Of a stretch of DNA of 64,000 nt, positions 24,219 to 41,826 are shown in pieces; within the stretch, counting starts at the first letter, position 1; every line of letters begins with the position of its first letter. The DNA lies in assembly GCA_946887075.1 (NCBI GenBank), contig CAMPKA010000005.1, positions 62,001-126,000 on the forward strand, given 5' to 3'. The position numbers were made by a program, and so were the translations under genes. Origin of the DNA: an uncultured Salinimicrobium sp. GTDB lineage: Bacteria; Bacteroidota; Bacteroidia; Flavobacteriales; Flavobacteriaceae. The notes under the pieces were generated by a model. That model made no database searches. It saw only the letters and a program-made list of their open reading frames with translations, and was not told the origin of the DNA.

Positions 24219-26638
24219 TATATCACCAAGTTAACTGAATTTTCCAGCTTCTGGAATTCCTCCACCCAGAGCGCCGCCTTCTCATCCTGACCCTGCCTGG
24301 CTTCCATAGCTTCGAGCTGTTCCTCCTTAACACGGAAGATGATGTTCTGACATTCCCATTTTTCCAGGGTGAGGGGACTTTCCTCGAGAACTTCGATCAC
24401 CCTGTTGATGTAACTCAGCAAATCCGTGTTTTCGGGATCCTCCTTAAATTTATAAAGTAATTGAGTAAGGCGCCGGTCCGCCAGGAAGTTCAGCGTTACC
24501 AGATCCAGGTCCACTTCGACCGCAACGGCAGATTTCAGTTGATTCTCCAACCTTTTCAGATTTAGGTCAGGATTTCGGAGCTCCTCTATCAGACGGCTGT
24601 TGACCGCGAGTTCTACCGGAAGTTTTAAACGCGATGGGACCACCATGTTGATCTCCTGGAAGGTTTTCAGCAAAGGATAGGTATTGTCAAAGAGCTGTTG
24701 CATGGCACCCTCTGCCCCACTCAGGTTGTTTTCCATGACCTGCTCCATTATGTGATGCTGTTCATCCCGGAAAAGGTGCCAGAAAGAATAATTGTGATTG
24801 CCGAAATAGGAGTCCAGGATGTTGAAGATTTCATAAATATTTCCTTTCTCAAAGAAGGCGGCTATCTTGATGTGGAGTTCCTCGAGGGCCTCGGGGCTGA
24901 TATACCTCCGTACGCCTCCAAAGACGTGATGGTCTCCCATATAAAGCACCGCATAGGATATATCAACTTCTTCCCAGGTGATGTCAGACCTGAACTGCGT
25001 CCGGCCCACCACCAGTTTCTGCTTCCCGGCCTCGTAATAATGATGCGCCTTTACTGTGGCTCCAAAGTTGTAAAGGGTCACTTTTTCAGGAAATTCCTCA
25101 AAAAGAGAGGAGATCGCATAGTGGGCGCCGATCCTGATCATGTCGAGTTCCATTGGCCTCACAAAACGTTCGTAGGCCTTATAGGCAGTGCCATATTCCG
25201 GAAGGTTGCTCGGAACCTGCTTCAGGGCCTCCGTGAAAGCCGGTTCAAAATCCTGGTCGCTAACCTCTTTAGCCAGTTGAATGGCTCGTGTGGCATAGAG
25301 AATGTCCTGCATGGATTCAATACCGGTAACTTCATCGAAAAACCAGCCACAGCTTGTATACATCAGCATGGCATGATACTGCATCTCGAGGAGTTTGAGC
25401 AATTTCACCTTATCTTCGTCGGAAAGGGCCTCCCCGAAATGCTCCTCCAGAAAAGCAGACACGTTTTCCTCCTGCCTGTTCAGGATAACACGGATATAGG
25501 CATCCCGTGCTTCCCAGGGATTAGCGGTGAACCTTCCCATTTCCTCCTCATAGAGGGTAATCAGCTTCTCCCGGACCTGATCAAAGGCATTGCGAAGCGG
25601 TTCCCTCCATTTTTGATTCCAACCTGCATTGCCTCCGGTGTTGCAGCCGCAATCACTTCTCCATCGCTCGACCCCGTGGTAGCAACTCCAGGAGGTGTTG
25701 TCCAATATCTCCACTTCGTGTTTCGGGGGATATTTTTCAAGAAACTCCCCGTAAATTGTCAGTTTGACATCCTCCCTTTCCGCGATGGAATGCAGGCAAT
25801 ACGAGAGGGCCATTTCCCCCAGTTTGTGATGGTGTCCGTAACTTTCACCGTCAGTGGCGATGTTCATCAGCTCCAGTTCATCATCCTCTGACAAGGCATC
25901 CTGTAATCGATTAGCAAAGGTTTCGCCGTTGTTCAGCAGTCCTTCAAAAGCCACAGCCTGTGAAGCCGAACCATCATAGAAAAAAAGGTTGATCTCTTTT
26001 CCAGAGGGAAGTTTGCAGAGGTATGCTCTTCGGGTATTGACCTTGGCATCCTTGGCATCCTTCCATTCAGTACCGCCGATTTTCCTTACCCGTTTGGCCT
26101 GGTAGGGAGACAGGATCGTGAATTTGATTCCGTGCCTGGCAAGAACCTCAAGGACTTCAGTATTAACGGCGGTCTCTCCCAACCACATCCCTTCTGGATC
26201 CCGCTGATATCTGTACCGGAAGTCCTCGATTCCCCAGATTACCTGGGTCTCCTGATCCCGTGCATTGGCCAGGGGCATTATAAGATGGTTATAGGCCTGT
26301 GCAAGAGCAGCGCCGTGACCTCCAAAGCGTTCAATGCTTTCCTTGTCAGCATCTAAAATAGCCTGATAGGTTTCAGGAGCCTCATGTTCCATCCATTCCA
26401 GGAGCGTGGGTCCGATATTAAAGCTCATCCAGGCATAATTGTTCATGATTGCCTCAATTCTGCCCTCTGTGTTCAGGATTCTTGAGGCGGAATTTCTGAC
26501 ATAACATTCGGCATTGATCCTGTGATTCCAGTCGTGATAGGGATAGGCAGATTCCTGCATTTCAACCTTGTTGAGCCAGGGGTTTTCCCTTGGAGGCTGA
26601 TAGAAATGCCCGTGAATGCAGATATATTTTTTATTCAT
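24218..26638 (-). CDS. GH57 family protein with DUF3536 C-terminal domain
   Basis: 806 residues. The start HGHFYQPPRENPWLNKVE is the GH57 signature, followed by YVRNSASRILNTEGR and NYAWMSFNIGPTLLEWM. IATDGESYGHHHKLGEMAL lies in the catalytic half and carries a conserved Asp/Glu pair. The C-terminal half (from about 450) is DUF3536. GH57 includes alpha-amylases, amylopullulanases and branching enzymes, but the DUF3536 branch has no proven activity known to me. Placed between treZ and treY and coupled to treY, it probably trims, debranches or branches the same glucan. Confidence 0.88.
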   Translation of the reverse strand: MNKKYICIHGHFYQPPRENPWLNKVEMQESAYPYHDWNHRINAECYVRNSASRILNTEGRIEAIMNNYAWMSFNIGPTLLEWMEHEAPETYQAILDADKESIERFGGHGAALAQAYNHLIMPLANARDQETQVIWGIEDFRYRYQRDPEGMWLGETAVNTEVLEVLARHGIKFTILSPYQAKRVRKIGGTEWKDAKDAKVNTRRAYLCKLPSGKEINLFFYDGSASQAVAFEGLLNNGETFANRLQDALSEDDELELMNIATDGESYGHHHKLGEMALSYCLHSIAEREDVKLTIYGEFLEKYPPKHEVEILDNTSWSCYHGVERWRSDCGCNTGGNAGWNQKWREPLRNAFDQVREKLITLYEEEMGRFTANPWEARDAYIRVILNRQEENVSAFLEEHFGEALSDEDKVKLLKLLEMQYHAMLMYTSCGWFFDEVTGIESMQDILYATRAIQLAKEVSDQDFEPAFTEALKQVPSNLPEYGTAYKAYERFVRPMELDMIRIGAHYAISSLFEEFPEKVTLYNFGATVKAHHYYEAGKQKLVVGRTQFRSDITWEEVDISYAVLYMGDHHVFGGVRRYISPEALEELHIKIAAFFEKGNIYEIFNILDSYFGNHNYSFWHLFRDEQHHIMEQVMENNLSGAEGAMQQLFDNTYPLLKTFQEINMVVPSRLKLPVELAVNSRLIEELRNPDLNLKRLENQLKSAVAVEVDLDLVTLNFLADRRLTQLLYKFKEDPENTDLLSYINRVIEVLEESPLTLEKWECQNIIFRVKEEQLEAMEARQGQDEKAALWVEEFQKLENSVNLVI

Positions 26639-26694
26639 AGCTGTTTTAGTTTTTAAGGTTCCCGAGCAGCAGATAAGACTATGCTTCTCCGGTT

Positions 26695-28497
26695 TTATCC
26701 GTGTGTTATTATGACAAAGGATTCTGGGGGCAGGCGAAGGGAATTTCTCTCAAAGAGAGGATCCCCTTCCATACTTCCACCCCATTTACGTTGTGCGGAG
26801 AAAAAAACAAGCTCCCATCCCGCTTGAAGATCTTCCACCAGCAACTGCTCCTGTTTCCCAAAGTTGAACCAGGCGCTGAGCGCTCCAGATGATGCTCTTA
26901 CCCTCAGAATCTCTGACCGTGTATCGCTCTGGGTTTCGACCCCCTCGCTCAATGGACGGAAGGTCCCTTTCTTCCGAAGTTGGATCAGTTCCTTATAGAA
27001 GGAAAAAAGAATGCTCTGGGGCTTCTTGTTTTTAAAATTCCAATCCAGTTTCGATTCCTGAAAGGAGGTTTCAGCTTGTGGGTCGGGGAATTCCGCAGCG
27101 CTGTGATTAAAGTACTCGAATTCCTTTCTCCGGCCTTCCCTGACTGCCCTTACGAGATCCTCATCCCCGTGGCTGATGAAATACCGGAAGGGTTCCCCGG
27201 CTCCGAACTCTTCTCCCATGAACAGCATAGGCACATAAGGGGCCAGAAGCAGCAATCCTGCAGCCAATTTCTGTTTTTCGAAGGATACCAGGGTGGAGAG
27301 CCGCTCCCCTAGCAGCCGATTCCCGACCTGATCGTGGTTCTGAACGGAGACCACAAAGCGATCAGGAGGAAGTCCCTGTGGGCTGTTCCCAATCCTTTTC
27401 TTTCGGAACACCGAATAGCTCCCATCGTAGACAAAGGCCTGCCTGAAGGATTTTTCCAGGAGCTCTATTGTTCCATAGTCCATGTAGTAACCGGCCTTCT
27501 CTCCGGTAAGAACGGTATGGACACAATGGTGAAAATCATCCACCCACTGGGCCTCAAGGCCAAAACCGTTGGGCAGGTCCCGGACAAGGCGGGCGTCGTT
27601 CAGATCGCTTTCCGCAATGATCACCAGTCTTCTCCCGCATTCTTCCTCCAGTTCGTTGACCCTCCTGCTGAGCTCCTCCAGGAAATGGACGGCGCCGCGA
27701 TCTATGATTTCATGGACCGCATCGAGACGCAGTCCGTCCATATGGAAATCGCGGAGCCACATCAGCGCGTTTTGCAAAAAAAACTCCCTTACTCCGTCGG
27801 AATATGCGTCGTCAAAATTAATGGCGCTTCCCCAGGGGGTATGATATTTATCAGTAAAACAGGGTCCATATGCAGGAAGATAGTTCCCCTCTGGTCCAAG
27901 GTGGTTGTATACCACGTCCAGTATCACAGCGAAACCTCTTTGGTGGCAGGTGTTGACAAGCTGTTTCAAGCCTGCCACTCCCCCGTAGCTATCCTGAACC
28001 GCATAGGGATATACCCCGTCATAACCCCAGTTCCTGCTCCCGGGAAACTGAGCGACCGGCATGATTTCAATAGTATTTATACCGAGTTCCTCGAGATGGT
28101 CGAGTTTTGCTGTAATTCCCTGGAAGGTACCCTCTTGCGTGAAGGTTCCGGTGTGCAGTTCATAGAGGATCATATCCCTTGTTTCCCTTCCCTTCCAGGA
28201 CTGATCTGTCCAGGAAAAAGCCTTCTGATCCAGAACCTGGGACCAGGAATGGACCCCCATGGGCTGTGAAAGGGATGCAGGATCCGGAAGTGGTCCCTCT
28301 CCATCGACTATGTACTGATACAGGTCTCCGGGAATTACCCCTTCTATGGTCGCTTCCCAATATGCCCCTTGCTGTTCGAGCCTGAAAGGATCCTCATATT
28401 TTTTAAGTACGACTGCCACAGTTTTGGCCTCAGGGGCCCAGACCGTGAACCGGCATTTCTCATTGTCCAGATATTCCACACCAACATGCTTTCCCAT
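26695..28497 (-). CDS. treZ: Malto-oligosyltrehalose trehalohydrolase (GH13)
   Basis: 600 residues from the ATG at 28497. The frame continues to a TTG at 28530, but that TTG is part of a -7 box, and MGKHVGVEYLDNEKCRFTVW is a normal TreZ beginning. CBM48-like N-terminus (FTVWAPEAKTVAV), then the GH13 barrel with WGYDGVYPYAVQDSYGG, MDGLRLDAVHEIID (nucleophile Asp), LVIIAESDLNDARLV (acid/base Glu) and VSVQNHDQVGNRLLGERL. Releases trehalose from the end made by TreY. First gene of the minus-strand operon; 56 bases to the GH57 gene. Confidence 0.94.
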   Translation of the reverse strand: MGKHVGVEYLDNEKCRFTVWAPEAKTVAVVLKKYEDPFRLEQQGAYWEATIEGVIPGDLYQYIVDGEGPLPDPASLSQPMGVHSWSQVLDQKAFSWTDQSWKGRETRDMILYELHTGTFTQEGTFQGITAKLDHLEELGINTIEIMPVAQFPGSRNWGYDGVYPYAVQDSYGGVAGLKQLVNTCHQRGFAVILDVVYNHLGPEGNYLPAYGPCFTDKYHTPWGSAINFDDAYSDGVREFFLQNALMWLRDFHMDGLRLDAVHEIIDRGAVHFLEELSRRVNELEEECGRRLVIIAESDLNDARLVRDLPNGFGLEAQWVDDFHHCVHTVLTGEKAGYYMDYGTIELLEKSFRQAFVYDGSYSVFRKKRIGNSPQGLPPDRFVVSVQNHDQVGNRLLGERLSTLVSFEKQKLAAGLLLLAPYVPMLFMGEEFGAGEPFRYFISHGDEDLVRAVREGRRKEFEYFNHSAAEFPDPQAETSFQESKLDWNFKNKKPQSILFSFYKELIQLRKKGTFRPLSEGVETQSDTRSEILRVRASSGALSAWFNFGKQEQLLVEDLQAGWELVFFSAQRKWGGSMEGDPLFERNSLRLPPESFVIITHG

Positions 28498-28527
28498 AAG
28501 CTCAGGAATCCATTTTCCAAGGTCAAT

Positions 28528-28535
28528 CAAAGCTA
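28528..28535 (-). promoter_or_regulatory. -7 box of the treZ operon
   Basis: TAGCTTTG on the minus strand matches TAnnTTTG and sits 30 bases before the ATG at 28497. It overlaps the alternative TTG start. Confidence 0.5.
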
Positions 28536-28685: not shown

Positions 28686-30665
28686 ATGAAGTTAGAAGGC
28701 CATAAAAGGGTGAGTATTAGAAATGTTTCGCCACAGATAGATTGTGGCAGATATCCGATAAAAAGAGTAACGGACGAGGAGATCCGGGTCGAGGCAGACA
28801 TCTTTGGGGATGGCCATGACAAAGTAGATGCGGTGCTGCTATACCGTGAGGTAAAAAAAGAGAGGGGTCGGGAAAACAAATGGACAGAGGTACCGATGAA
28901 ATTCGAAGGAAATGACCACTGGAGTGCCGCCTTTAGTCTGCCGGTGACCGGAAACTACGAATATACTATCGAGGGTTGGGTCGACCATTACCGGACCTGG
29001 CAGGATAGCCTTCAGAAGAAAGCGGCAGCCGGTCAGGACCTTCGGGTGGAGATGCTGATCGGCGCCGAGCTCATGGAGCAGGCGATCTCACATGCGACGG
29101 CACCCAACAAGAAGAAACTAAAGGAATGGATACGGCTCCTGAAATCTGAGGAACATCAGGCCCAGGCCCAGGCAGAGGCCCTTGGAGACACCGCTTCAAG
29201 GGTGATGTACGCGTCCCGTGACCGCAGCCGCGCCTTTGCTTACGAGCGAACGCTGCAGGTCCGGGTCGAAAGGAAAAAAGCGCTGTTCAGCTCCTGGTAC
29301 GAATTCTTTCCCCGGTCGGCCTCTCCTGAGAAAGGAAGACACGGCACTTTCAGGGACTGTGAAAGGGTGCTTCCCGAAGTGGCCAAAATGGGGTTCGACG
29401 TCATTTATTTTCCTCCGATCCATCCTATCGGGCACCGCCACCGCAAAGGAGTGAATAATGCGACTGAAGCAGCGGAAGGAGATCCCGGTTCTCCCTGGGC
29501 AATTGGTTCCGAGGAGGGAGGCCATAAGGCGATCCATCCGGAGCTAGGGACCCTGGATGATTTTCAGCGGCTGGTTGGGAAGGCTGCGGAATCTGGTATC
29601 GAAATCGCCCTGGATTTTGCCATTCAGTGCTCCCCTGATCATCCATATGTGAAGGAGCACCCGCAGTGGTTCAAATGGAGGCCCGATGGAACAGTTCAAT
29701 ATGCGGAAAATCCTCCGAAGAAGTACCAGGATGTGCTCCCGGTCAATTTTGAAACCGAGGATTGGAAGAACCTTTGGGAGGAGCTCAAGAGTATAGTGGA
29801 ATACTGGATCGACAAGGGTGTTACCATCTTCAGGGTGGATAACCCCCACACGAAAACCTTTCTCTTCTGGGAATGGCTTATCGGGGAGATCAATAAGAAA
29901 TACGACGGGATTATTTTCCTTGCCGAGGCCTTTACACGTCCCAGGGTTATGGAGGAGCTCGCCAAGATCGGATTTAACCAGTCCTACACCTATTTTACCT
30001 GGCGCAATACCCGGGAAGAGTTCGTCGAATACCTCACCCAGCTGACTAGGACGGAGGTTAGAGAATACTACAGGCCGAACTTCTGGCCCAATACTCCCGA
30101 TATCCTTCCGATTTCCCTGGAGAACAAGCAGGAACCGTCTTTTATTATAAGGCTGCTTCTGGCCGGGACACTCTCCTCCAATTATGGACTTTATGGTCCT
30201 GTCTTTGAGTTTGGTCTCAACGAGGCCTTCCCCGGAAAAGAGGAGTATATCCATTCCGAAAAATATCAGATCTATCACTGGAACTGGGAGCGAAATACCC
30301 GGATCAAGGAGATGATCAGCATCCTGAACCGAATCCGGAAGGAGAATCCGGCCCTCCAAACGACATGGAACATAGAATTTCTGGAAACGGATAACGACCA
30401 TTTCCTGGCCTATACCAAAATGGACCAGGACAAGACCAACAAACTGATCATCGTGGTAAGCCTCGATCCCTATCACACCCAGGCGGGCTGGGTCAAGGTT
30501 CCACTGGAATCCCTGGAACTTTCCGCCGGAGAATCATTCTCGGTACAGGACCTGCTCACTGGCACGGGCTACATCTGGAACAATGAATGGAATTATGTGG
30601 AGCTTCATCCTCAGGCCATCCCGGCCCATATATTAAAAGTCGAATCTAAAGAACCGCTGAGCTAA
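28686..30665 (+). CDS. glgE: Alpha-1,4-glucan:maltose-1-phosphate maltosyltransferase (GH13_3)
   Basis: 659 residues. Transfers maltose from maltose-1-phosphate to the non-reducing end of alpha-1,4-glucan. N-terminal beta domain (RVTDEEIRVEADIFGDGHDKV region), helical insert, barrel with DVIYFPPIHPIGHRHRKG, nucleophile Asp385 in FRVDNPHTKT and acid/base Glu414 in FLAEAFTRPRVM; their spacing of 29 residues equals that of the studied actinobacterial enzyme. NYGLYGPVFEFG near the end is a GlgE hallmark. First gene of glgE - treS/mak - glgB; ten bases to the next gene. Confidence 0.95.
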   Translation: MKLEGHKRVSIRNVSPQIDCGRYPIKRVTDEEIRVEADIFGDGHDKVDAVLLYREVKKERGRENKWTEVPMKFEGNDHWSAAFSLPVTGNYEYTIEGWVDHYRTWQDSLQKKAAAGQDLRVEMLIGAELMEQAISHATAPNKKKLKEWIRLLKSEEHQAQAQAEALGDTASRVMYASRDRSRAFAYERTLQVRVERKKALFSSWYEFFPRSASPEKGRHGTFRDCERVLPEVAKMGFDVIYFPPIHPIGHRHRKGVNNATEAAEGDPGSPWAIGSEEGGHKAIHPELGTLDDFQRLVGKAAESGIEIALDFAIQCSPDHPYVKEHPQWFKWRPDGTVQYAENPPKKYQDVLPVNFETEDWKNLWEELKSIVEYWIDKGVTIFRVDNPHTKTFLFWEWLIGEINKKYDGIIFLAEAFTRPRVMEELAKIGFNQSYTYFTWRNTREEFVEYLTQLTRTEVREYYRPNFWPNTPDILPISLENKQEPSFIIRLLLAGTLSSNYGLYGPVFEFGLNEAFPGKEEYIHSEKYQIYHWNWERNTRIKEMISILNRIRKENPALQTTWNIEFLETDNDHFLAYTKMDQDKTNKLIIVVSLDPYHTQAGWVKVPLESLELSAGESFSVQDLLTGTGYIWNNEWNYVELHPQAIPAHILKVESKEPLS

Positions 30666-30675
30666 ATATTCAGAT

Positions 30676-33600
30676 ATGATCAAACCCATTAATTCTGCAG
30701 ATCAGCTAACCTGGTACAAAGACGCCATTATCTATGAGCTCCATATCAAGGCCTTCTTCGATAGCAATGGAGACGGGGTAGGGGATTTCGAAGGCCTGCT
30801 TCAAAAACTGGATTATCTGGAAGATCTGGGGGTAACTGCGATATGGCTCCTTCCCTTCTATCCCTCTCCCTTGAGAGACGACGGGTATGACATAGCGGAT
30901 TATTACAGCATCAACCCGGCCTACGGCGACCTGGAGATGTTCCAGAGACTTATCGATGAAGCCCACGAAAGGGGACTGAAGATCATTACTGAGCTGGTGA
31001 TCAACCATACCTCGGATCAGCATCCCTGGTTCCAGAGGGCGCGGACAGCGCCTCCCGGGTCCCCGGAGCGAGACTACTACGTATGGAGTGATGACCCCTC
31101 CAAATACAAGGATACCAGGATCATATTTACAGACACTGAACCTTCCAACTGGACCTGGGATCCGGTGGCAAAACAGTATTTCTGGCACCGGTTCTTTTCC
31201 CACCAGCCGGATCTGAACTTTGATAATCCGCAGGTACAGAAAGAAGTCTTTGATATCATAGATTTCTGGTGTGACCTTGGGGTGGACGGATTCAGGCTGG
31301 ACGCAGTCCCGTATCTCTACGAACGGGAGGGAACCAATTGTGAAAACCTGCCGGAGACTCACGTATTTCTAAAAAAGCTCCGCGCACATGTCGATAAACA
31401 TTATTCCAACAAACTCCTCCTGGCAGAAGCCAATATGTGGCCGGAGGATTCTGCGGAATATTTTGGGGATGGGGATGAGTGTCATATGAACTACCATTTT
31501 CCCATCATGCCCAGAATGTTTATGTCGGTCAAAATGGAGGACCGATACCCGATAATGGATATCATTGACCAGACCCCTGACATTCCTTCCAATTGCCAGT
31601 GGGCTATCTTTCTTCGGAACCATGACGAGCTAACCCTGGAGATGGTGACCGATGAAGAGCGTGACTATATGTATAAGGTCTACACCAAAGATCCTCAGGC
31701 AAAGATCAATGTGGGAATCCGTCACAGGCTCGCCCCTTTGCTGGAGAACAATCGCGCAAAGATCGAACTGATGAATGTCCTGCTGTTTTCTCTGCCTGGT
31801 ACTCCGGTCATCTACTATGGTGATGAAATCGGAATGGGTGACAACTTCTATCTCGGGGACAGGGATGGGGTCCGGACCCCCATGCAGTGGAGCTCTGATC
31901 GCAATGCAGGCTTCTCTACGGCAAATCCGCATAAGTTGTACCTTCCGGTGATTATCGATCCCTCATATAAATACGAATCCGTCAATGTCGAGACGGAACT
32001 GATGAATTCCTCTTCCCTGCTCTGGTGGATGAAAAGAATCATCAGTATGAGAAAAAAATACAAATCCTTTGGGCGGGGGGATATCAATTTCCTGTCGCCC
32101 AGCAATGCAAAAGTCATCGCATTTACCCGGACTTATGAAGATGAGGATATTCTCGTCCTGGGAAATCTCTCCCGTTTCCCTCAGGCGGTGGAACTCGATC
32201 TGGAACCCTATGATGGCTATATTCCTGTGGAGGTCTTCAGCCATAACAAGTTTCCGAGGATCACCGAACAACCCTACCTCTTCACTCTGGGGCCTCACGG
32301 GTATTACTGGTTCCAGCTCCAAAAAGAGAAGGGACACGTAGAAAAGGCGGAGACGCCCCTTCTGCAGGTGCCACAGTGGGAAGATCTTTTCCAGAATAAG
32401 GTCAAGATCCGCCTGGAGAATGAAGTGCTACCCCATTACCTCAGTACCTGCCGCTGGTTCGGTGGAAAGAGCCGGGTAATCCAGTTTATCGGGATCGTCA
32501 ACAAGGTCGATATTCCAGTGGAGGATCTCTCCACAACTCTCGTCACGCTGGAGGTTAACTACAACGACGGGCTTCCGGAGGTGTACCAACTTCCGCTGGG
32601 TTTTGCCACAGTGAGCAATGAGGAGGAGTTCCGGGAAATATCCGGAAAGGGAATCATCGCCAGGCTCAAAGTCGGAGGTCAGGAAGGATATCTCTTCGAC
32701 GCGGTCTACAGCGAGAGATTCCGGAATGTCCTGTTCCGGAACATCAAGATCGGTCGGCGCCTCAAGAGTGGACGAGGGAACCTGGTCTTCTACCACAGCG
32801 AGGGGGATTTCCAGCCGGGTCCGGAAAAGGTTCATTCCAAGGTCCTCAATGCGGAACAGAGCAATACTTCGCTGATCTTCGACAACAAGTACTTTCTTAA
32901 GCTCTACCGCAAGCTCGACAATACGATCAATCCGGACATGGAGATCACCAAATATCTAACGGAGAAGACTACCTATCAGAATTCCCCGAAGTTTGTAGGG
33001 GCGATTGAGTATGAACCGGACGCCCGGAATGTGATCGTCCTGGGAATGATGCAGGATCTTGTCCCCAACCAGGGAGATGCCTGGGATTATACCAAGGATT
33101 CCTTGAACCGGTTTTTTGAGAGGGTTCTGACGCGGCCGAGGGAAATGGAATTTGAAGCGGTGGAACATACCCTTGATCCTCTGAGTTATCAGGAACTTCC
33201 AGTTAACATGCAGGAGCTGATGGGGGGCATCTTTCCGGAACGAATCGATCTGCTTGGGAAGCGCACAGCAGAGATGCACAAGGCCCTGGCTGCCAATCCG
33301 GAGGTGAAGGACTTTGAACCCGAACCCTTTTCCCTGCATTACCAGCGGTCCCTTTTCTCCTCGCTCCAGTCCCTGACCAGAAATGCCTTTCAGAACCTTC
33401 AGAAGAGCATCAAGATACTGCCAGAAGAGATCCAGGCTGAAGCGGAGGAAATTCTGGGAATGAAGACCGAGGTGCTCAATACCTTTAAGCGGGTGTTCAG
33501 TCATAAGATCCCGGTTATGAAGATCCGGACGCACGGAGATTATCATCTTGGTCAGGTCCTGTGGACGGGAAGGGATTTTGTTATAATAGATTTTGAGGGA

Positions 33601-33975
33601 GAACCCGCGCGCTCCTTCAGCGAAAGGCGCCTGAAGCGATCTCCCCTTCGGGACGTGGCAGGAATGATCCGTAGTTTTCATTATGCCGCCTATAGCAGTA
33701 TTATCGAATCCGAATTCGATCAGCAAAAGAAGGAGGGGGATCTGGACCACTGGGCTGAGAATTGGTACTACCTGGTGACGCGCATGTTCCTCCAGGGGTA
33801 TTACAGCAATGTCGGTGACAATAATTTCATCCCCCGGGACAAGGAGGATACCGAAATTCTGATGCAGACCTTTCTGCTGGAAAAGGCGATTTATGAAATG
33901 AACTATGAACTGAACAACCGACCGGACTGGGTGTTGATCCCATTGAGAGGAATCAGGTCATGTATAAAAAAATAA
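30676..33975 (+). CDS. treS: Trehalose synthase fused to maltokinase
   Basis: 1099 residues, a fusion. Residues 1 to about 550 are TreS (GH13_16): SPLRDDGYDIADYYSI, nucleophile Asp209 in GFRLDAVPYLYEREG, Glu251 in LLAEANMWPED, Asp317 in LRNHDELTLE, and MQWSSDRNAGFS. It isomerises trehalose to maltose. From about 570 the maltokinase domain follows: HYLSTCRWFGGKSR start, then IRTHGDYHLGQVLW (about 951-964) and VIIDFEGEPARSFSERR, the phosphotransferase-type catalytic and metal sites. It makes maltose-1-phosphate for GlgE. In mycobacteria the two activities are separate proteins that form a complex; here the fusion couples them. Confidence 0.95.
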   Translation: MIKPINSADQLTWYKDAIIYELHIKAFFDSNGDGVGDFEGLLQKLDYLEDLGVTAIWLLPFYPSPLRDDGYDIADYYSINPAYGDLEMFQRLIDEAHERGLKIITELVINHTSDQHPWFQRARTAPPGSPERDYYVWSDDPSKYKDTRIIFTDTEPSNWTWDPVAKQYFWHRFFSHQPDLNFDNPQVQKEVFDIIDFWCDLGVDGFRLDAVPYLYEREGTNCENLPETHVFLKKLRAHVDKHYSNKLLLAEANMWPEDSAEYFGDGDECHMNYHFPIMPRMFMSVKMEDRYPIMDIIDQTPDIPSNCQWAIFLRNHDELTLEMVTDEERDYMYKVYTKDPQAKINVGIRHRLAPLLENNRAKIELMNVLLFSLPGTPVIYYGDEIGMGDNFYLGDRDGVRTPMQWSSDRNAGFSTANPHKLYLPVIIDPSYKYESVNVETELMNSSSLLWWMKRIISMRKKYKSFGRGDINFLSPSNAKVIAFTRTYEDEDILVLGNLSRFPQAVELDLEPYDGYIPVEVFSHNKFPRITEQPYLFTLGPHGYYWFQLQKEKGHVEKAETPLLQVPQWEDLFQNKVKIRLENEVLPHYLSTCRWFGGKSRVIQFIGIVNKVDIPVEDLSTTLVTLEVNYNDGLPEVYQLPLGFATVSNEEEFREISGKGIIARLKVGGQEGYLFDAVYSERFRNVLFRNIKIGRRLKSGRGNLVFYHSEGDFQPGPEKVHSKVLNAEQSNTSLIFDNKYFLKLYRKLDNTINPDMEITKYLTEKTTYQNSPKFVGAIEYEPDARNVIVLGMMQDLVPNQGDAWDYTKDSLNRFFERVLTRPREMEFEAVEHTLDPLSYQELPVNMQELMGGIFPERIDLLGKRTAEMHKALAANPEVKDFEPEPFSLHYQRSLFSSLQSLTRNAFQNLQKSIKILPEEIQAEAEEILGMKTEVLNTFKRVFSHKIPVMKIRTHGDYHLGQVLWTGRDFVIIDFEGEPARSFSERRLKRSPLRDVAGMIRSFHYAAYSSIIESEFDQQKKEGDLDHWAENWYYLVTRMFLQGYYSNVGDNNFIPRDKEDTEILMQTFLLEKAIYEMNYELNNRPDWVLIPLRGIRSCIKK

Positions 33976-33978
33976 GCA

Positions 33979-36711
33979 ATGGTCAAGAAAAAGGGAAATA
34001 AGGACATCGAAAGAAAGGAGAGTACCGTTGGTAAATCCCCAAAGGCACCAACCGGGAAAACCGCATCGAAAAAGACGCTTTCCGGTGAGGTGAAGGGACC
34101 GAAAGGAACGGGAAAGGGAGCTACCCCCTCAGAAAAAGCAACTGACCCGGGGGGTCTGAAACTGGAAGATACTCCCAAGAAACTTCCCGGACACGAGGCT
34201 CTACAGGGGCTTCCCGAACATGGGACTCCCGATCGTCAGGAAGCCCCGGGGAAGCCGTCTGCTGAAGCAAAGCCTGGGAAAGCTGGCAAAGTTCCCGCAA
34301 AAAACAAGGGGACAAGGGCGGGTAAAAAAATGGATTCCTCTGTAGGGGTAAAAAAAGCCAGAGAAAATAAGGCGGACAGTACCACCGGAAAAGAAAAAGC
34401 GGACAAGCCCACCCCGACCAGGAAACCGGCTAAGAAGATGTCTCGTACCAAGACCAGGCCCGGGATCAGTGCCGAGGAAAAAATGAAAATGCCTAACAGC
34501 TCACCCGGGGATGAGCTTAAAAAAGCGGCTCGTTCAGCCAGAAAGGCAGTTTCAGAGAAACTCACCCCTGATCAGGAGACCCGGCAGAAACTGGAAGAGA
34601 AGGCCAGGGAGATGATCCCTGATCCGGAAGAGCTCAAAGGAATGGCGGGGAGCATGGCGGAGAAAGTGATCGAAGGCTCCGAAAAAGCAAAGGAATACCT
34701 AAAGGAAATCCTTCCGGATGAGGATGAAATTAAGAAAGAGGCCCAGGAGGTCATGAATAAAGACAGGAACCAGGAGAAACAGCACCAGAAAGGTTCGGAG
34801 GAGCAACCGGCTGAGGCAAGTCTGCTGACGGCCTTTGATATTCATCTTTTCCGGGAAGGAAAGCACTATCACCTGTACAACAAGCTTGGGGCACATCCGA
34901 TGACCTACATGGGAACCAAGGGGGTGTACTTTGCGGTCTGGGCTCCCAATGCCGAGTACGTTTCTGTGATCGGTAGTTTTAACAACTGGAACAGGGAAAA
35001 TCACAGGATGAATTCCAGGTGGGACCATTCCGGAATATGGGAAATCTTTATTCCCGGAGCCAAAAAAGGGGACCTGTACAAGTATTTCATCCGGTCCAAC
35101 AGCGGATATGAAGTAGAAAAAGGAGACCCGTACGCCTTCCGATGGGAGACACCTCCCCACACCGCTTCCCTGGTATGGGATCTTGAGAATACCTGGAATG
35201 ATAAAAAATGGATGACCCGGCGGATGCAGAACAAGGAAAAGGCTCAGCCATACAGTGTGTATGAACTCCACCTCGGGTCATGGAAAAGAATGCCCGAGGA
35301 TGGATACAGGTCCCTCTCCTATGCTGAACTTGCGGAGGATTTACCCGCCTACCTGAAGGAAATGGGCTTTACCCATGTTGAATTCATGCCTGTAATGGAA
35401 CACCCTTTCTTCGGGTCCTGGGGCTATCAGATTACCGGGTATTTTGCGCCTTCGAGCAGATTTGGCAGTCCCCAGGAGTTTATGTACCTGATTGATCGTC
35501 TGCATCAGGAAGGTATCGGGGTTATTCTGGATTGGGTTCCCTCCCACTTCCCTTCAGATCAGCACGGTCTGCATTATTTCGACGGAACCCACCTCTATGA
35601 ACACGAGGATCCACAGAAAGGATTTCATCCGGACTGGCAAAGTTATATCTTCAATTACGGCAGGAATGAAGTGCGGTCCTTTCTGATCAGTAACGCGCTC
35701 TTTTGGCTGGACAAATTTCATTGTGACGGGCTGCGGGTCGATGCCGTGGCTTCAATGCTCTACCTGGATTACTCGAGGAAGCACGGGGAATGGCAGCCCA
35801 ATGTTGAGGGAGGACGGGAAAATCTTGAGGCGATCAGTTTTCTGAAGGAATTCAACGAGGTGGTGTACCGGGAATACCCTGACACCATTACGATAGCGGA
35901 AGAATCTACCGCCTGGCCTATGGTTTCCAAACCGACCTATATGGGAGGCCTGGGCTTTGGAATGAAATGGATGATGGGCTGGATGCATGACACTCTGGAA
36001 TATTTCAGCAAAGATCCGATCCACAGGCGCCATCACCAGAATACGATCACCTTTAGCCTGAATTATGCGTTTAGCGAAAACTTCATGCTACCCTTGTCTC
36101 ATGATGAAGTGGTCTATGGGAAAGGCTCCATCCTGAATAAGATGCCGGGAGATCAATGGAACAGGTTTGCCAATCTTCGCACCCTGTATTCCTATATGTA
36201 CGCGCATCCCGGTGCCAAGTTGCTTTTTATGGGAGCCGAATTCGCACAGGCCTCCGAATGGAACCACGATTCCAGTCTGGAATGGCATTTGGCCGGAGCT
36301 GATCCGCACAGGAAGATCCAGGAGACCCTCAAGGAGCTCAACAGGCTATACAAGAACGAGCCTGCGCTCTATGAAAAGGCCTTTACCCAGGAAGGATTCG
36401 AATGGGTGGATTTGAACGATGCGGAAAACAGTATCATCAGCTTTATCAGAAAAGGCAACGATTCAAAAGATGACCTGCTCGTAATCTGCAATTTCACACC
36501 GGTTCCCAGGGAAAACTACCGGCTCGGGATGAGGGAAAAAGGCAGCTGGCAGGAGCTCTTCAACAGTGACAATGAAGCGTTTGGTGGTAGCGGGGTTCGG
36601 AATGACGGCGCGATCTCAACCCAGGAACTCGGGGCGCACGGTAAGGACCATTCCCTGTCCCTGACCCTTCCTCCTCTGGGAGTGCTTTACCTGAAGAAAA
36701 GCGGAGCTTAA
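33979..36711 (+). CDS. glgB: 1,4-alpha-glucan branching enzyme with long basic N-terminal extension
   Basis: 910 residues; the usual length is about 630-730. Residues from about 280 on are a normal GlgB: CBM48 ([22 protein letters not shown]), barrel with ELHLGSWKR, nucleophile Asp588 in [14 protein letters not shown], Glu641 in IAEESTAWP and Asp709 in [14 protein letters not shown]. Residues 1-180 are Lys/Pro/Gly/Thr-rich and without order, resembling histone-H1-like tails. Residues 180-270 form charged helices ([52 protein letters not shown]). The extension may anchor the enzyme to glycogen granules, another protein or a polyanion; this is inference. Three bases after treS/mak; four-base convergent overlap with the next gene. 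Confidence 0.94.
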
Positions 36712-37391
36712 TCAGGTGAATTTCTGAAGGCATTGAAGACCCCGAGTTTGATCTCGGGGTCGAGTACATTCTGGGACACAAGTTTCTGATTCACCTCGAG
36801 TTCTATCCCACTGTATCCTTCAGGAAACCTGGTCCTAAGATAAGTGGTAAATCCGTCTGCCGTTCCCAGATAAGGATAGTTGAAGGCAATCCTGATCCAG
36901 GGGAGCTCCTTGTGCAGTGCCTGGCGAAAGGATTCGGCAAAAAAAGCCTCTGCACTTCGCGCTGGGTCAAACAGGATTCCAATCTCCGCTGTCCGCTCCT
37001 CCCCATTGAGCACGGGAGTAAAGCTGTGTACGGAGAGATGCAGCACCTCTTGCTGATCACCTAGAAATGCCCGGATTCGGTCTTCTACAGGATCCCTGTA
37101 AGCGTAGTAATAGCATCGCAGGATCTCCGGTTTTTGCGCCTCCGGGATTCCCCTTGTGAATTTCGAAAAGAGTTCCGGGTGATCCAGGGATCTGTTGTTT
37201 TCCACCAGGAGACGGCTTACCTCCGTATGCCGGCTGTAGTCGGCAAGGGGAACCAGGCCGAGAAAAAGGTCCAGGGCTCCCGGATCATATCCTTTGTGGG
37301 TTGCAAGAAGGTCCCCGGCTCCCCGAAACAGGGAGCTGAACTCAGCGGGAACGAGGTTTCCGGCATGCTCACAGGTAAGAACCTTTTTCAA
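36708..37391 (-). CDS. N-formylglutamate amidohydrolase-like protein
   Basis: 227 residues. Family signatures: [49 protein letters not shown] and GIELEVNQ, with the His/Glu/Asp set used for zinc in this family. It starts at a TTG whose last bases overlap the GCS2 stop (TTGA), so it is translated by coupling. True N-formylglutamate deformylases sit in histidine-degradation operons; no hut gene is present. With an ATP-grasp and a GCS2 ligase as partners, it more likely hydrolyses an acyl-glutamate or isopeptide bond in their product. Convergent with glgB. Confidence 0.85.
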
Positions 37392-38620
37392 TTTTCCTCG
37401 AGTGGATCAAAAAAATCATTTTGTGCCAGGCAGCGACCAAGTTTCCGATAAACCTGTATTAACCGCTGCTGGGATTGGTTCTGATCAAGCGCAGTAACCA
37501 ATCTTGAGGCGAGGCTTTTATTTTGCAGGAGCCATGTGATGTCCTGCACCCGCTGCTCAGGGATCTCATCCCTTACCAGGCTCAATAGTTTCTTCCATAT
37601 CTCCCCAGCCTTTACCTTTCCCTCCAGGTCGAATAGCGCCAGGTATTTCTGATCCGTAATCTCCGCGGCCTCTGCGTCCCGAATCGAAATATCGAGTAGC
37701 CCTGCCAGATCATTTTCATGCCAGTTCTGCTGGTCTTCAAAGGAAACCAGCTCCTCGCTGACGAGCAGCCGGAGAGATTCCACAATCAGCACCGCAAGGC
37801 TGATATCTGCCTTGGGGCATTCCTGAAGGTCTATCACCCTGATTTCGATAGCTCCCCGATCAAATCTGGCAATGGCTCCCCTGGAATTGAGAAAATGCTG
37901 ATCGAGGATATGCTCCTGGTCATGGGGCCGGATTGCCCTGTTGATCGGTTCAAAGATTCTTTCAAAATATGTCGCCCGATCGAAAACCTGCTCCGGAATT
38001 ACTTTCCCGGTCATCTCAGGAATTTCCTTCTGATTGGTTTTATAGTAGTGCATCCGGGTATCCCTGAATCCGGTATACCTTCCATCCAGAACTGGGGAGC
38101 TGGCACTGAGGGCTGGAATGATCGGAAGAAGGATGCGGACCGCAGCATGAAGCCGTCCGAATTCCTCATCTCCTGAGAATGGAAGGTTGATATGCATGCT
38201 TTGAAGATTGGACCATCCATGGCCCCGACAGTCAAAGATCCGGTTATAGAGCTCATAAATCCTGTTGTTCTCATGAGGCCAGAGCTTCATTTCCGTTGCC
38301 GGATCCATCAGTGGATGTGCGGCCGAAGGAAGAAGCTGACAGCCGTATTCCCCAAGTAGTCCGTTGATCTCCCTGACATTGGCAGTAAACAGCGCTTCCA
38401 GCTCCTCGAGATCCTCAGCCGGACCATTGGTTTTGAGCTCGACCACATGGGCGACGAGTTCATTGCTCCATGCCACAGGCCCATTTTCTACTTCTGAGCT
38501 GAGGCTGCCGTTTTTCCTGGTCAGGAGCTGGTCGACAACAGGAGCTATTTTCAAAGAATCCGATTTGACGACCATGTACTCCAGCTCTATACCATAAACT
38601 TCAAAAAGATGATAGGCCAT
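37388..38620 (-). CDS. GCS2-type carboxylate-amine ligase (glutamate-cysteine ligase family)
   Basis: 410 residues. Glutamine-synthetase-like fold of the GCS2 family: FEVYGIELEYMVV near the N-terminus (metal-binding Glu pair), VAHVVELKTNGPAEDL, then the HGWSNLQSMHINLPF core and GAIEIRVIDLQECP later. GCS2 enzymes join glutamate or a related acid to an amine using ATP; the plain YbdK type makes gamma-glutamylcysteine only weakly, and the substrate here cannot be read from sequence. One base separates it from the ATP-grasp gene upstream and four bases overlap the amidohydrolase gene. Confidence 0.88.
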   Translation of the reverse strand: MAYHLFEVYGIELEYMVVKSDSLKIAPVVDQLLTRKNGSLSSEVENGPVAWSNELVAHVVELKTNGPAEDLEELEALFTANVREINGLLGEYGCQLLPSAAHPLMDPATEMKLWPHENNRIYELYNRIFDCRGHGWSNLQSMHINLPFSGDEEFGRLHAAVRILLPIIPALSASSPVLDGRYTGFRDTRMHYYKTNQKEIPEMTGKVIPEQVFDRATYFERIFEPINRAIRPHDQEHILDQHFLNSRGAIARFDRGAIEIRVIDLQECPKADISLAVLIVESLRLLVSEELVSFEDQQNWHENDLAGLLDISIRDAEAAEITDQKYLALFDLEGKVKAGEIWKKLLSLVRDEIPEQRVQDITWLLQNKSLASRLVTALDQNQSQQRLIQVYRKLGRCLAQNDFFDPLEEN

Positions 38621-38621
38621 G

Positions 38622-40073
38622 TTATTTTTTTTCTAGGCGATTTTTCAGGGCAGAGAGAATTTCAGTGTAAACGCGATCGCCGTAGAAACCGTCTTCCACT
38701 CCTGCATCGACGTTGGGATTATCGTTGATCTCGATTACCAGTGCCTTCCCATCGACCTCCTTCACGTCAATCCCGTACAGCCCTTTACCCATCAGTCGAG
38801 CTGCTTTCAGGGCTGCCTTGAGAACCTGATCCGGAACTTCCTCCAGGGCCATGACATCAGCGTTGCCATTACGGTCATCCTTTTTCTTTGCACTCCAGTT
38901 GTAGATCTGCCAGTGATCCGGTGCCATATAATACCGGCAGGCGAATAGTGGCTGATCATCAAGAACCCCGATCCGCCAGTCATAATCGGAAGGGGTAAAT
39001 TCCTGAGCGATGACAAGCTCCGATTTTCTTAACATCTCTGCCACAAGTTTCTCATATTCTTCGGGTGTTGAGGCTTTTTTCACTCCGAAAGAGAAGGTAG
39101 AATCGGGGGACTTCAGTACCAGGGGAAGCCCGATCCTGTCGATGACCTTGTTCCTGTTGTCCTTGTGTACGATCAGGGTCCGGGGGGTAGGGATCCCGGC
39201 ATTTTCAAGGGCCTCCGCCATAAAAACCTTGTTGCAGCATTTCAGGATCGCGTCCGGATAATCCACCAGGGCGATATCCTCCTGCTGCGCTTTTCTCGCA
39301 AAGGCATAGGCTTCATTGTTCACCTCCGTACTCTGCCTGATCAACAAAGCATCAAATGCAGAAAGGCGGGACAGGTCCTTTGGAGAAACAATTTCGACAT
39401 AAAATCCCATCTTTTCAGCAAGTTCCGCAAATTTACGAAGTGCCTTCTGATTGCTTGGGGGGGCAGGATCATTGTCCTGAACCAGGATGGCCAGATCATA
39501 TTCGTAGGATCCACTTCTGGGGGTGTCATATCTTTTTTTAGCGAAATACTGCACCGCAAATTCCCGCATACTCTCCCTGTGTTCTTCGGGAATCTCCGCC
39601 TCTGAAATCGCCTTGATCGCCTTGATGTTCCACTTGTTTGTTTTGACGAACCTTACCCGGAGAAATGGGATCTGAAAATGTCTGTGGAACATCGCACTGA
39701 GTTCCCGGTATTTCCGGGCGACGTTTTGCCCAAAGTAGATACTCAAGGTAAATTCCTGGGATTTGATATCCCTAAGACTTTTTTGGATTAGGCCATCGAA
39801 TTCGTCTGATACGATCTTGACCAGGATGGGTTCGCGCAGATCGACCAGGTTCCGAACAGTGGGTATAGCCTGATGGCCACGAGCCTCAGCTAAAAGCGAT
39901 ACATAATAGCCTTTGGACTGGTAAGAATAATCCTTGCAAAGATTGAAGATCCGGGCCTTCTTCATCGTGGAAAATTTCGGATTCATCAGATAATCCCTGG
40001 CCGCGACCAGTTCGATATTCTCCAGATGGATATTCCAGTGTTCAGGTTTATTGACAACAAGATACTTGTTCAT
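38622..40073 (-). CDS. ATP-grasp ligase with RimK-like N-terminal (RLAN) domain
   Basis: 483 residues from the ATG at 40073; the open frame runs on to 40190, but a promoter lies between. N-terminal 1-200 match the RLAN domain that precedes RimK-type ATP-grasps (KYLVVNKPEHWNI, FNLCKDYSYQSKGYYVSLLA). The ATP-grasp follows: DALLIRQSTEVNNEAYAFAR, LPLVLKSPDSTFSFGVKK (nucleotide site), VIAQEFTPSDYDWRIGVLDD and the metal-binding GIDVKEVDGKALVIEINDNPN near the C-terminus. RimK relatives add glutamate to proteins or small acceptors. First gene of the amidoligase operon. Confidence 0.9.
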   Translation of the reverse strand: MNKYLVVNKPEHWNIHLENIELVAARDYLMNPKFSTMKKARIFNLCKDYSYQSKGYYVSLLAEARGHQAIPTVRNLVDLREPILVKIVSDEFDGLIQKSLRDIKSQEFTLSIYFGQNVARKYRELSAMFHRHFQIPFLRVRFVKTNKWNIKAIKAISEAEIPEEHRESMREFAVQYFAKKRYDTPRSGSYEYDLAILVQDNDPAPPSNQKALRKFAELAEKMGFYVEIVSPKDLSRLSAFDALLIRQSTEVNNEAYAFARKAQQEDIALVDYPDAILKCCNKVFMAEALENAGIPTPRTLIVHKDNRNKVIDRIGLPLVLKSPDSTFSFGVKKASTPEEYEKLVAEMLRKSELVIAQEFTPSDYDWRIGVLDDQPLFACRYYMAPDHWQIYNWSAKKKDDRNGNADVMALEEVPDQVLKAALKAARLMGKGLYGIDVKEVDGKALVIEINDNPNVDAGVEDGFYGDRVYTEILSALKNRLEKK

Positions 40074-40094
40074 GAAATGAGGCTGAATTTTGAC

Positions 40095-40126
40095 CAAAGT
40101 TAGCGCAAATTTCGTTCCGATGACAA
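40095..40126 (-). promoter_or_regulatory. Promoter of the amidoligase operon
   Basis: On the minus strand TTG (40126-40124), 21 bases, TAACTTTG (40102-40095), matching the Bacteroidetes -33/-7 pair. It implies transcription from about 40089 and fixes the ligase start at 40073. Confidence 0.65.
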
Positions 40127-40311
40127 CGGAATATACTGCCGATGATACTCGAGTAAGGGATTGGCTGAGCCCGTGAGAAGATCCGTTCAAAAGTTTTCAA
40201 AATACTGATTAAGAACAGGTTAAATATGTTTTGGTCTTTTCGATTTTCCCTGTTATTTTTTATTTTGGAAAAGTTGAAGAACTGAATTATTAACCTTTAA
40301 AAGCAATTATT

Positions 40312-40755
40312 ATGGCAACGCGATTAGGATTTGAGAAATTCGCCCAGGAAGCCCATGAATATATTAACTTCCTGGCTGAGCAACTCGGACATCCCGAGGA
40401 AAAGGAGCGGGCCCTAATCCTCTGGCGGGCTGTGATGCACTCCGTACGAGATAGAATTCACATCGGAGAATCATTTCAGATCATGGCTCCCCTGCCCATG
40501 ATTTTCAAGGGGATCTACGCTGAGGATTGGAAGTTTTCGGAAAAACCGCCGAAATCATATGACACCATGGAGGGGATGGAAAACGATGTTCAGAGGATAC
40601 AAAGGCAATATGGGGAAACCGAATTTTCCTGGGGAAAACCCACCTCTGAACTAATAGCCATTACCTTGAGTTCCCTGACCAGGTACATGCCTGAATCCCA
40701 ACTAGAGCACATTCGGGAACAGCTCCCAAAAGAGATTCATGAAATGGTCAGCTGA
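40312..40755 (+). CDS. DUF2267 domain protein
   Basis: 147 residues covering one DUF2267 unit: FEKFAQEAHEYINFLAEQLG, ALILWRAVMHSVRDRI, APLPMIFKGIYAEDW, and ITLSSLTRYMPESQLEHIREQLPKEI near the end. The family is helical and of unknown function; members often appear with stress or phosphate genes. No signal peptide. Transcribed alone, with a strong terminator 26 bases after the stop. Confidence 0.88.
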   Translation: MATRLGFEKFAQEAHEYINFLAEQLGHPEEKERALILWRAVMHSVRDRIHIGESFQIMAPLPMIFKGIYAEDWKFSEKPPKSYDTMEGMENDVQRIQRQYGETEFSWGKPTSELIAITLSSLTRYMPESQLEHIREQLPKEIHEMVS

Positions 40756-40780
40756 TTTCCATAACAGGCTCATGCAATTG

Positions 40781-40813
40781 GCGCCTCTTCCCTAGCCGGA
40801 AAGGCGCTTTTTT
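40781..40813 (+). terminator. Intrinsic terminator after the DUF2267 gene
   Basis: GCGCCT-C-TTCC pairs with GGAA-AGGCGC (40781-40807, one bulged C, loop CTAGCC) and is followed by six T at 40808-40813. Confidence 0.85.
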
Positions 40814-40995
40814 CATTCCGGCTTTTTCGATATCTTTTTCTCATTCTTCAGAGAATTTCCGCTAAAGCTATAACCAAAAATTCTGATGGAGTTTTTAAAC
40901 AAGCCTCTTATAAAATCCCTATAAGACAGAAATGTTCGGAATCTAGAGACTAAGTTAACACATCCCCACCCTATGGTAGCAACAGAGACTTTTGT

Positions 40996-41826
40996 TCATT
41001 TTCCACAATTCGGCTGGAAATCTTGGAGCCACCATGTCAGGGCCTCCGGAATCTCCTTGGCCCAGAGATCCTCATTGTGCCTTCCGCCTTCCACGGTTTT
41101 ATACCTGAGATTCTCTTCGGGAATCCCCTTTCGCAGTAGCAGAAGTGTCATCCTTTGCATGTTCGGAATCATCGTCTCCCCCTCTTCCGTACCCCCCATT
41201 ATGTAAAAACGTTGATCTTTAGCCAACTCTGTTTCATTAACAAACGAAAAGATCTCCTCATTAAACCACAGGGAAGGGGAAAAGACTCCTGCAAACCCAA
41301 ATACTTCCGGATACTGAAGCATGGCGTACAGAGAAACCAATCCTCCCAGGGAGGAACCCATAATGCCTGTGGAGGTCTTATTGGGATCGGTACGAAAATG
41401 TTTATCGATATAGGGTTTGAGGTCATTAACCACAAATTCCAGGTAAGCATTGGCTCCTCCACCTCCATATTCAGGATTCGGGAAAGGTGTGAGTTCCTGT
41501 ATTCTTTTCTCATTGCCGTGCTCAATGCCCACGACGATCATTTTCCTTCCCTTCGTGCGATCCAGCCATTCATCTATCCGCCACTCTCCTGAAAAAGCGG
41601 TGGAGGTGTCAAAAAGATTCTGCCCGTCGTGCATATAAAGCACCGGGTAACAATGCCTGGGTTCTTCGTCGTAATTATCCGGAAGATAGATCCACATCCT
41701 TTTGAGGGTGTCGAGCTGCGGCGCGTCGAGCTCAAGGCTAACAATATTTTCGGATGCGCTCGTCTGACCCCTGGCAAGGCCAGAAAGAAAAAAAATCAGG
41801 AGCACTAAAAGGGAATTTTTGGCCAT
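40996..41826 (-). CDS. Secreted esterase, Fes/esterase-D-like alpha/beta hydrolase
   Basis: 276 residues. Signal peptide MAKNSLLVLLIFFLSGLARG. The mature enzyme has PVLYMHDGQNLFD, the nucleophile elbow MGSSLGGLVSLYAM (GxSxG) and the C-terminal VEGGRHNEDLW with the catalytic His. This is the Esterase_put (PF00756) type, related to enterochelin esterases and feruloyl/acetyl-xylan esterases. Substrate is not predictable; no siderophore genes are nearby. The 200 bases beyond its stop, up to the terminator at 40813, hold nothing I can identify. Confidence 0.88.
   Translation of the reverse strand: MAKNSLLVLLIFFLSGLARGQTSASENIVSLELDAPQLDTLKRMWIYLPDNYDEEPRHCYPVLYMHDGQNLFDTSTAFSGEWRIDEWLDRTKGRKMIVVGIEHGNEKRIQELTPFPNPEYGGGGANAYLEFVVNDLKPYIDKHFRTDPNKTSTGIMGSSLGGLVSLYAMLQYPEVFGFAGVFSPSLWFNEEIFSFVNETELAKDQRFYIMGGTEEGETMIPNMQRMTLLLLRKGIPEENLRYKTVEGGRHNEDLWAKEIPEALTWWLQDFQPNCGK

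Follow-up and report, generated by a model that had tools for sequence, protein, structure and literature searches.

An RLAN-ATP-grasp, GCS2 Ligase and FGase-like Hydrolase Operon in Salinimicrobium and Its Possible Role in Making a Capped Peptide

Introduction

What might two ATP-dependent ligases of different folds and a hydrolase do together when their genes are packed into a single operon? The question is raised by a window of 64,000 nucleotides (the window being the whole stretch of DNA that we analyzed) from an uncultured Salinimicrobium sp. (assembly GCA_946887075.1, contig CAMPKA010000005.1, positions 62,001 to 126,000), whose minus strand carries, at 36708..40073, the genes of an RLAN-ATP-grasp ligase, a GCS2-type ligase and an FGase-like hydrolase. 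A preliminary description made from the sequence alone had called this an amidoligase operon, and our search of the open literature found no paper on RLAN proteins. We propose, at about an even chance, that within the cell these enzymes build a short capped peptide and recycle it, following the logic of glutathione synthesis with other substrates; the enzyme families, gene order and partner genes described below are observed, while from them we infer the substrates, the product, the order of steps and the physiological role.

The Operon and Its Enzymes

The three-gene arrangement and the domain calls of the preliminary description were borne out by Pfam matches above the cut-offs. The first gene (38622..40073, minus strand, 483 amino acids) encodes a protein matching RLAN at 163.9 bits (cut-off 25), Dala_Dala_lig_C at 45.8 bits and RimK at 41.1 bits (cut-off 21), with the RLAN domain (residues 1–186, 39516..40073) followed by a catalytic ATP-grasp module (residues 190–483, 38622..39506), which is the architecture of PF14401. 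The second gene (37388..38620, minus strand, 410 amino acids) encodes the GCS2-type ligase (PF04107, 122.2 bits against a gathering cut-off of 21), and the third (36708..37391, minus strand, 227 amino acids, with a TTG start) the FGase-like hydrolase (PF05013, 63.7 bits against a gathering cut-off of 28.9). In the window, a gap of 1 bp separates the first two genes and the last two overlap by 4 bp. None of the three proteins matched the PADLOC anti-phage models at E 0.001.

The listed open reading frame of the RLAN gene extends to a TTG at 40190, and its start is most likely the ATG at 40073 that gives 483 amino acids, this being the form found in the protein database and in the majority of close relatives; the protein is 83% identical to that of locus L001, and the nearest genus is Salinimicrobium. 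A predicted promoter of the Bacteroidota type lies at 40095..40126 on the minus strand, with TTG as the −33 element (40126–40124) and TAACTTTG as the −7 element (40102–40095), the latter starting 29 nt ahead of the ATG; this candidate is a single match to the −33/−7 consensus of the phylum. A generic sigma-70 scan of 36000–41000, whose model leaves Bacteroidota promoters outside, gave 8 sites against 4.5 in shuffled sequence (standard deviation 2.0), its minus-strand sites lying more than 230 nt upstream of the ATG. The claim that no hut, glutathione or ribosomal S6 gene is near agrees with our Pfam scan of 17 neighboring window proteins, among which we found none.

Each of the three proteins has strongly conserved residues. 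In the RLAN protein, K321, R367, D436 and E448 are kept in 112 of 112 aligned rows and N450 in 111, and from the ATP-grasp fold we take these five to be catalytic. E12, E14, E54, H143, E259 and R261 of the GCS2 protein are at least 97% conserved in 99 rows, as are E8, H9, D36, H122, E197 and E199 of the FGase protein in 90 rows. The nearest folds of the catalytic module are LysX, ArgX and RimK, and the predicted structure of the RLAN domain itself resembles a shortened ATP-grasp fold.

Conservation and Partner Exchange

The trio had been described as one system, and it recurs as one, being near-constant in related loci and also present on a Legionella plasmid. We took the best 80 of 580 confirmed RLAN relatives from named genome records, which by title belong mainly to Flavobacteriaceae genera, with two entries named "Bacteroidia bacterium". 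In all 80, GCS2 follows RLAN on the same strand, and the order RLAN, GCS2, FGase holds in 78, the remaining two (L015 and L043) stopping at a contig edge; this is a constancy beyond chance. The packing is also regular across the window, these 80 loci, one plasmid and 20 loci taken from the phylum sample described below: the RLAN–GCS2 spacing has a median of 1 bp and is at most 25 bp in 95 of 102 pairs (longest 504 bp), and the GCS2–FGase spacing has a median of −4 bp and is at most 25 bp in 83 of 93 pairs (longest 467 bp). The Legionella adelaidensis plasmid (L143) carries the same trio in the same order, with identities to the window proteins of 44% (RLAN), 41% (GCS2) and 38% (FGase); it was the only match when the plasmid collection was searched with the window GCS2, and the best relatives listed for its own GCS2 protein include many named Legionella species.

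A wider view came from 395 genomes drawn evenly from Bacteroidota, the phylum of the L001 genome, in which RLAN was found above the cut-off in 43. The GCS2 type, called by profile A3 at E 1e-30, occurs in 30 of the 395, all of them within these 43 and all adjoining RLAN. The other 13 RLAN genomes have a GNAT acetyltransferase instead, fused to the N-terminus of the RLAN-ATP-grasp in 12 and encoded by an adjacent gene in one (G159), and no GCS2 type was detected in these 13 at E 1e-30. The two partners thus account for all 43 RLAN genomes, with none having both and none having neither. One further RLAN match, in G374, was dropped as it fell under the cut-off and contained internal stops; separately, the GCS2 frame of G183 (L114) is split. 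Across the 112 rows, the conserved ligase segments DWR.G, C.Y.MA..HWQI and NDNP read the same, with single exceptions, in the nine that have a GNAT partner and in all the others, which suggests that the two kinds of RLAN ligase share a ligation step.

Profile A1 (E 1e-20) found an operon-type FGase in 24 of the 395 genomes, adjoining GCS2 in 21 and standing alone amid unrelated genes in 3 (G085, G155 and G368; loci L168–L170). We also noted that the neighborhood of these solitary genes has in common aminotransferase-like and hydroxyacid-dehydrogenase-like genes, named by eye. A constant fourth partner, envisaged in the preliminary description, exists over most of the phylum sample as a papain/C39-like peptidase gene that directly precedes RLAN in 26 of the 30 GCS2 loci. 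These 26 lie outside Flavobacteriaceae, and the gene is lacking in the window and in all four Flavobacteriaceae loci of the sample (G001, G202, G230 and G359); a single-protein search across the whole genomes of G001, G202 and G230 found none. Peptidase_C39_2 was above the cut-off in three of three examples scanned, and C15, H172 and D190 of the peptidase are conserved in 17 of 17 aligned sequences. All nine GCS2 loci that have no FGase carry the C39-like gene, so at least one hydrolase is present in 30 of 30.

Neighboring Genes

The operon converges with a row of alpha-glucan genes at 28686–36711 on the plus strand, comprising GlgE (Pfam), a TreS-kinase-like gene (by eye) and GlgB, and the stops of the two gene sets overlap at 36708–36711. 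Further alpha-glucan enzymes (GH77, GH57 and alpha-amylases) lie at 20081–28530. GlgB has an N-terminal tail of about 280 residues (33979–34830), rich in Lys, Glu, Gly, Ala and Pro, its first Pfam domain starting at residue 302, and long forms of 868–996 amino acids are found in five Salinimicrobium relatives as well (L001–L005).

Proposed Mechanism and Alternatives

In the capped-peptide proposal, the GCS2 ligase would first use ATP to couple glutamate, through its side-chain carboxylate, to an amino acid or some other amine; the RLAN-ATP-grasp would then activate the carboxylate left free in this product and add a second amino acid; and the FGase-like metallohydrolase, and in other lineages the papain/C39-like peptidase, would cut the product for turnover or trimming. 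Since GNAT replaces GCS2 in the sister systems, both probably provide one shared ligase with an N-terminal cap, which would be gamma-glutamyl in the one case and acyl in the other. We favor this proposal because the genes are closely packed in a fixed order, because the GCS2 type is always beside RLAN with GNAT in the remaining RLAN genomes, because a hydrolase is kept in each of the 30 GCS2 loci (FGase in 21, C39-like in 26), and because successive ligations in peptide metabolites have been ascribed to linked ligases of different folds, an ATP-grasp with a COOH-NH2 ligase or GNAT (PMC4431377).

Several observations weigh against this proposal. FGase is missing in 9 of the 30 GCS2 genomes, and RLAN and GCS2 searches found neither in the three genomes where FGase is solitary. 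GCS2 and GNAT partly follow the phylogeny, the GCS2 label requiring 3 changes in a 49-protein RLAN tree, and thus the 43 loci count as fewer than 43 independent events. Outside Bacteroidota, four plasmid records show mixed partners, namely GCS2 in Legionella (L143), an adjacent GNAT gene in Azospirillum (L145), neither beside RLAN in Pseudomonas (L144) and a weak GNAT match on the opposite strand in Aeromonas (L146), and therefore the split is established for the Bacteroidota sample only. In the flanks, read by eye, no transporter is constantly linked to the loci. The L001 genome (G001), which is close to the window, has two adjacent full-strength glutathione-synthetase-like domains on contig C45 at about 162–164 kb, some 70 kb from the operon. 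Finally, the nearest folds, LysX, ArgX and RimK, act on the C-terminus of a protein or carrier protein, as structure titles also indicate, which favors protein tagging.

Such tagging is the main alternative, one that we hold less probable than a capped peptide. The RLAN-ATP-grasp would extend the C-terminus of a protein whose gene lies elsewhere by glutamate or a different amino acid, GCS2 would add gamma-glutamyl units, and the FGase or C39-like peptidase would remove the tag in the way RimB trims RimK products, this pair being a precedent for a ligase with a peptidase (PMC12239564). Besides the nearest folds, the additional RLAN domain could dock a protein. The residues of the RimK glutamate-chain site, reported as R64, R189, N262, R211, H215 and R216 (PMC10092738), divide in their bearing on this reading when set against the RLAN ligase in one pairwise alignment. 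R64, R189 and N262 align to R246, R367 and N450 and are kept, in favor of tagging; R211 and H215 are replaced by Q389 and D400, and R216 falls at position 401, with an alignment gap beside it, which is Arg in the window and in 7 of 112 rows and Gln in 81, all of which counts against it. The comparison points to an acceptor site partly different from that of RimK, and does not prove it. No target or carrier gene recurs in the flanks examined by eye: a search for a LysW-type carrier or graspetide precursor over 700 bp of upstream and 800 bp of downstream sequence, which a distant gene would escape, gave clusters of short open reading frames of which the largest covers 15 loci, and the 14 largest were read by eye as frames within neighboring genes. 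Our measurements give protein modification no preference over a small peptide.

A plain glutathione or gamma-glutamylcysteine pathway run by unusual enzymes is improbable. The pairing of GCS2 with an ATP-grasp does follow the logic of the glutathione enzymes, and in 31 RLAN genomes from a 247-genome set, a full-strength glutathione synthetase ATP domain (GSH-S_ATP, 166–180 bits) occurs in just 3, weaker matches mostly marking the places of canonical RimK. However, the GCS2 protein is under all listed gamma-glutamylcysteine synthetase (gamma-GCS) and YbdK cut-offs of NCBIfam, reaching at best 60.7 bits against 371 (56 against 176.4 for TIGR02050), no cut-off among these models being below 176; among the PF02955 matches listed for the 31 genomes, none lies at an RLAN locus; and glutathione synthesis is not known to require a dedicated FGase. 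A separate canonical RimK is found above the cut-off elsewhere in 26 of these 31 genomes and is absent from 5. At the level of family models, the two ligases therefore appear to be something other than plain gamma-GCS and S6 modification, as the preliminary description had supposed.

Degradation rather than synthesis, with the FGase and peptidase serving salvage and the ligases re-amidating or repairing N-acyl-glutamate compounds, is likewise quite unlikely, for although one or two hydrolases lie beside the ligases in 30 of 30 loci and FGase is able to stand alone, both ligases stay in the nine loci that have no FGase and form the constant core.

Returning to the capped peptide, the near-constant, compact three-enzyme operon of Flavobacteriaceae, with an apparently interchangeable cap enzyme in related loci, suggests a common metabolite or tag, one left unassigned in the literature searched, and the exchange of GCS2 for GNAT predicts the chemistry, the same ligation with a different cap. 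More tentatively, and well short of an even chance, we suggest that RLAN enzymes are tandem ATP-grasps, with a degenerate N-terminal copy and an active one, and that they are the invariant part of a modular pathway to capped peptides, in which the cap is interchangeable, gamma-glutamyl from GCS2 or acyl from GNAT. Bacteroidota and Legionella would then make gamma-glutamyl peptides of a class not yet described.

Comparison with Known Systems

The window ATP-grasp is under the family cut-offs of RimK (73.6 against 143.4 bits for TIGR00768 and 29.7 against 331 for NF007764), and it differs from RimK, LysX and ArgX in its extra RLAN domain and a partly different acceptor loop. Glutathione synthesis by gamma-GCS and GshB is likewise distinct, in that neither window ligase reaches a curated model and the operon adds a dedicated hydrolase. 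The N-formylglutamate deformylase HutG and Atu2144 have the FGase family in common with the third protein, whose sole clear relative in the Protein Data Bank is 2odf (Atu2144, E 3.1e-14); the window protein matched no family in an NCBIfam scan at E 0.001, a library expected to include a HutG model, and no hut gene lies among the neighbors scanned.

Related systems are those that the 2009 amidoligase survey of Iyer et al. reportedly named, in which RLAN (PF14401) is said to be associated with GNAT and papain-like peptidases. They have the same RLAN-ATP-grasp, and in our loci GNAT partners appear in L140, L145 and the 12 fusions, a C39-like part being seen weakly in the GNAT gene of L140 (18 bits), while the C39-like peptidase stands beside GCS2-type loci; the window, in contrast, has GCS2 and FGase and no C39-like gene. 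The osmolyte N-acetylglutaminylglutamine amide (NAGGN) is made by a pathway with a GNAT-ATP-grasp fusion, an amidotransferase and a peptidase. Its combination of cap enzyme, ATP-grasp and hydrolase is like that of the window operon, and the sister loci have a GNAT-ATP-grasp fusion as well; the difference lies in the amidotransferase, which is absent here, no such model appearing in the NCBIfam tables of the GNAT-RLAN fusions L125 and L138.

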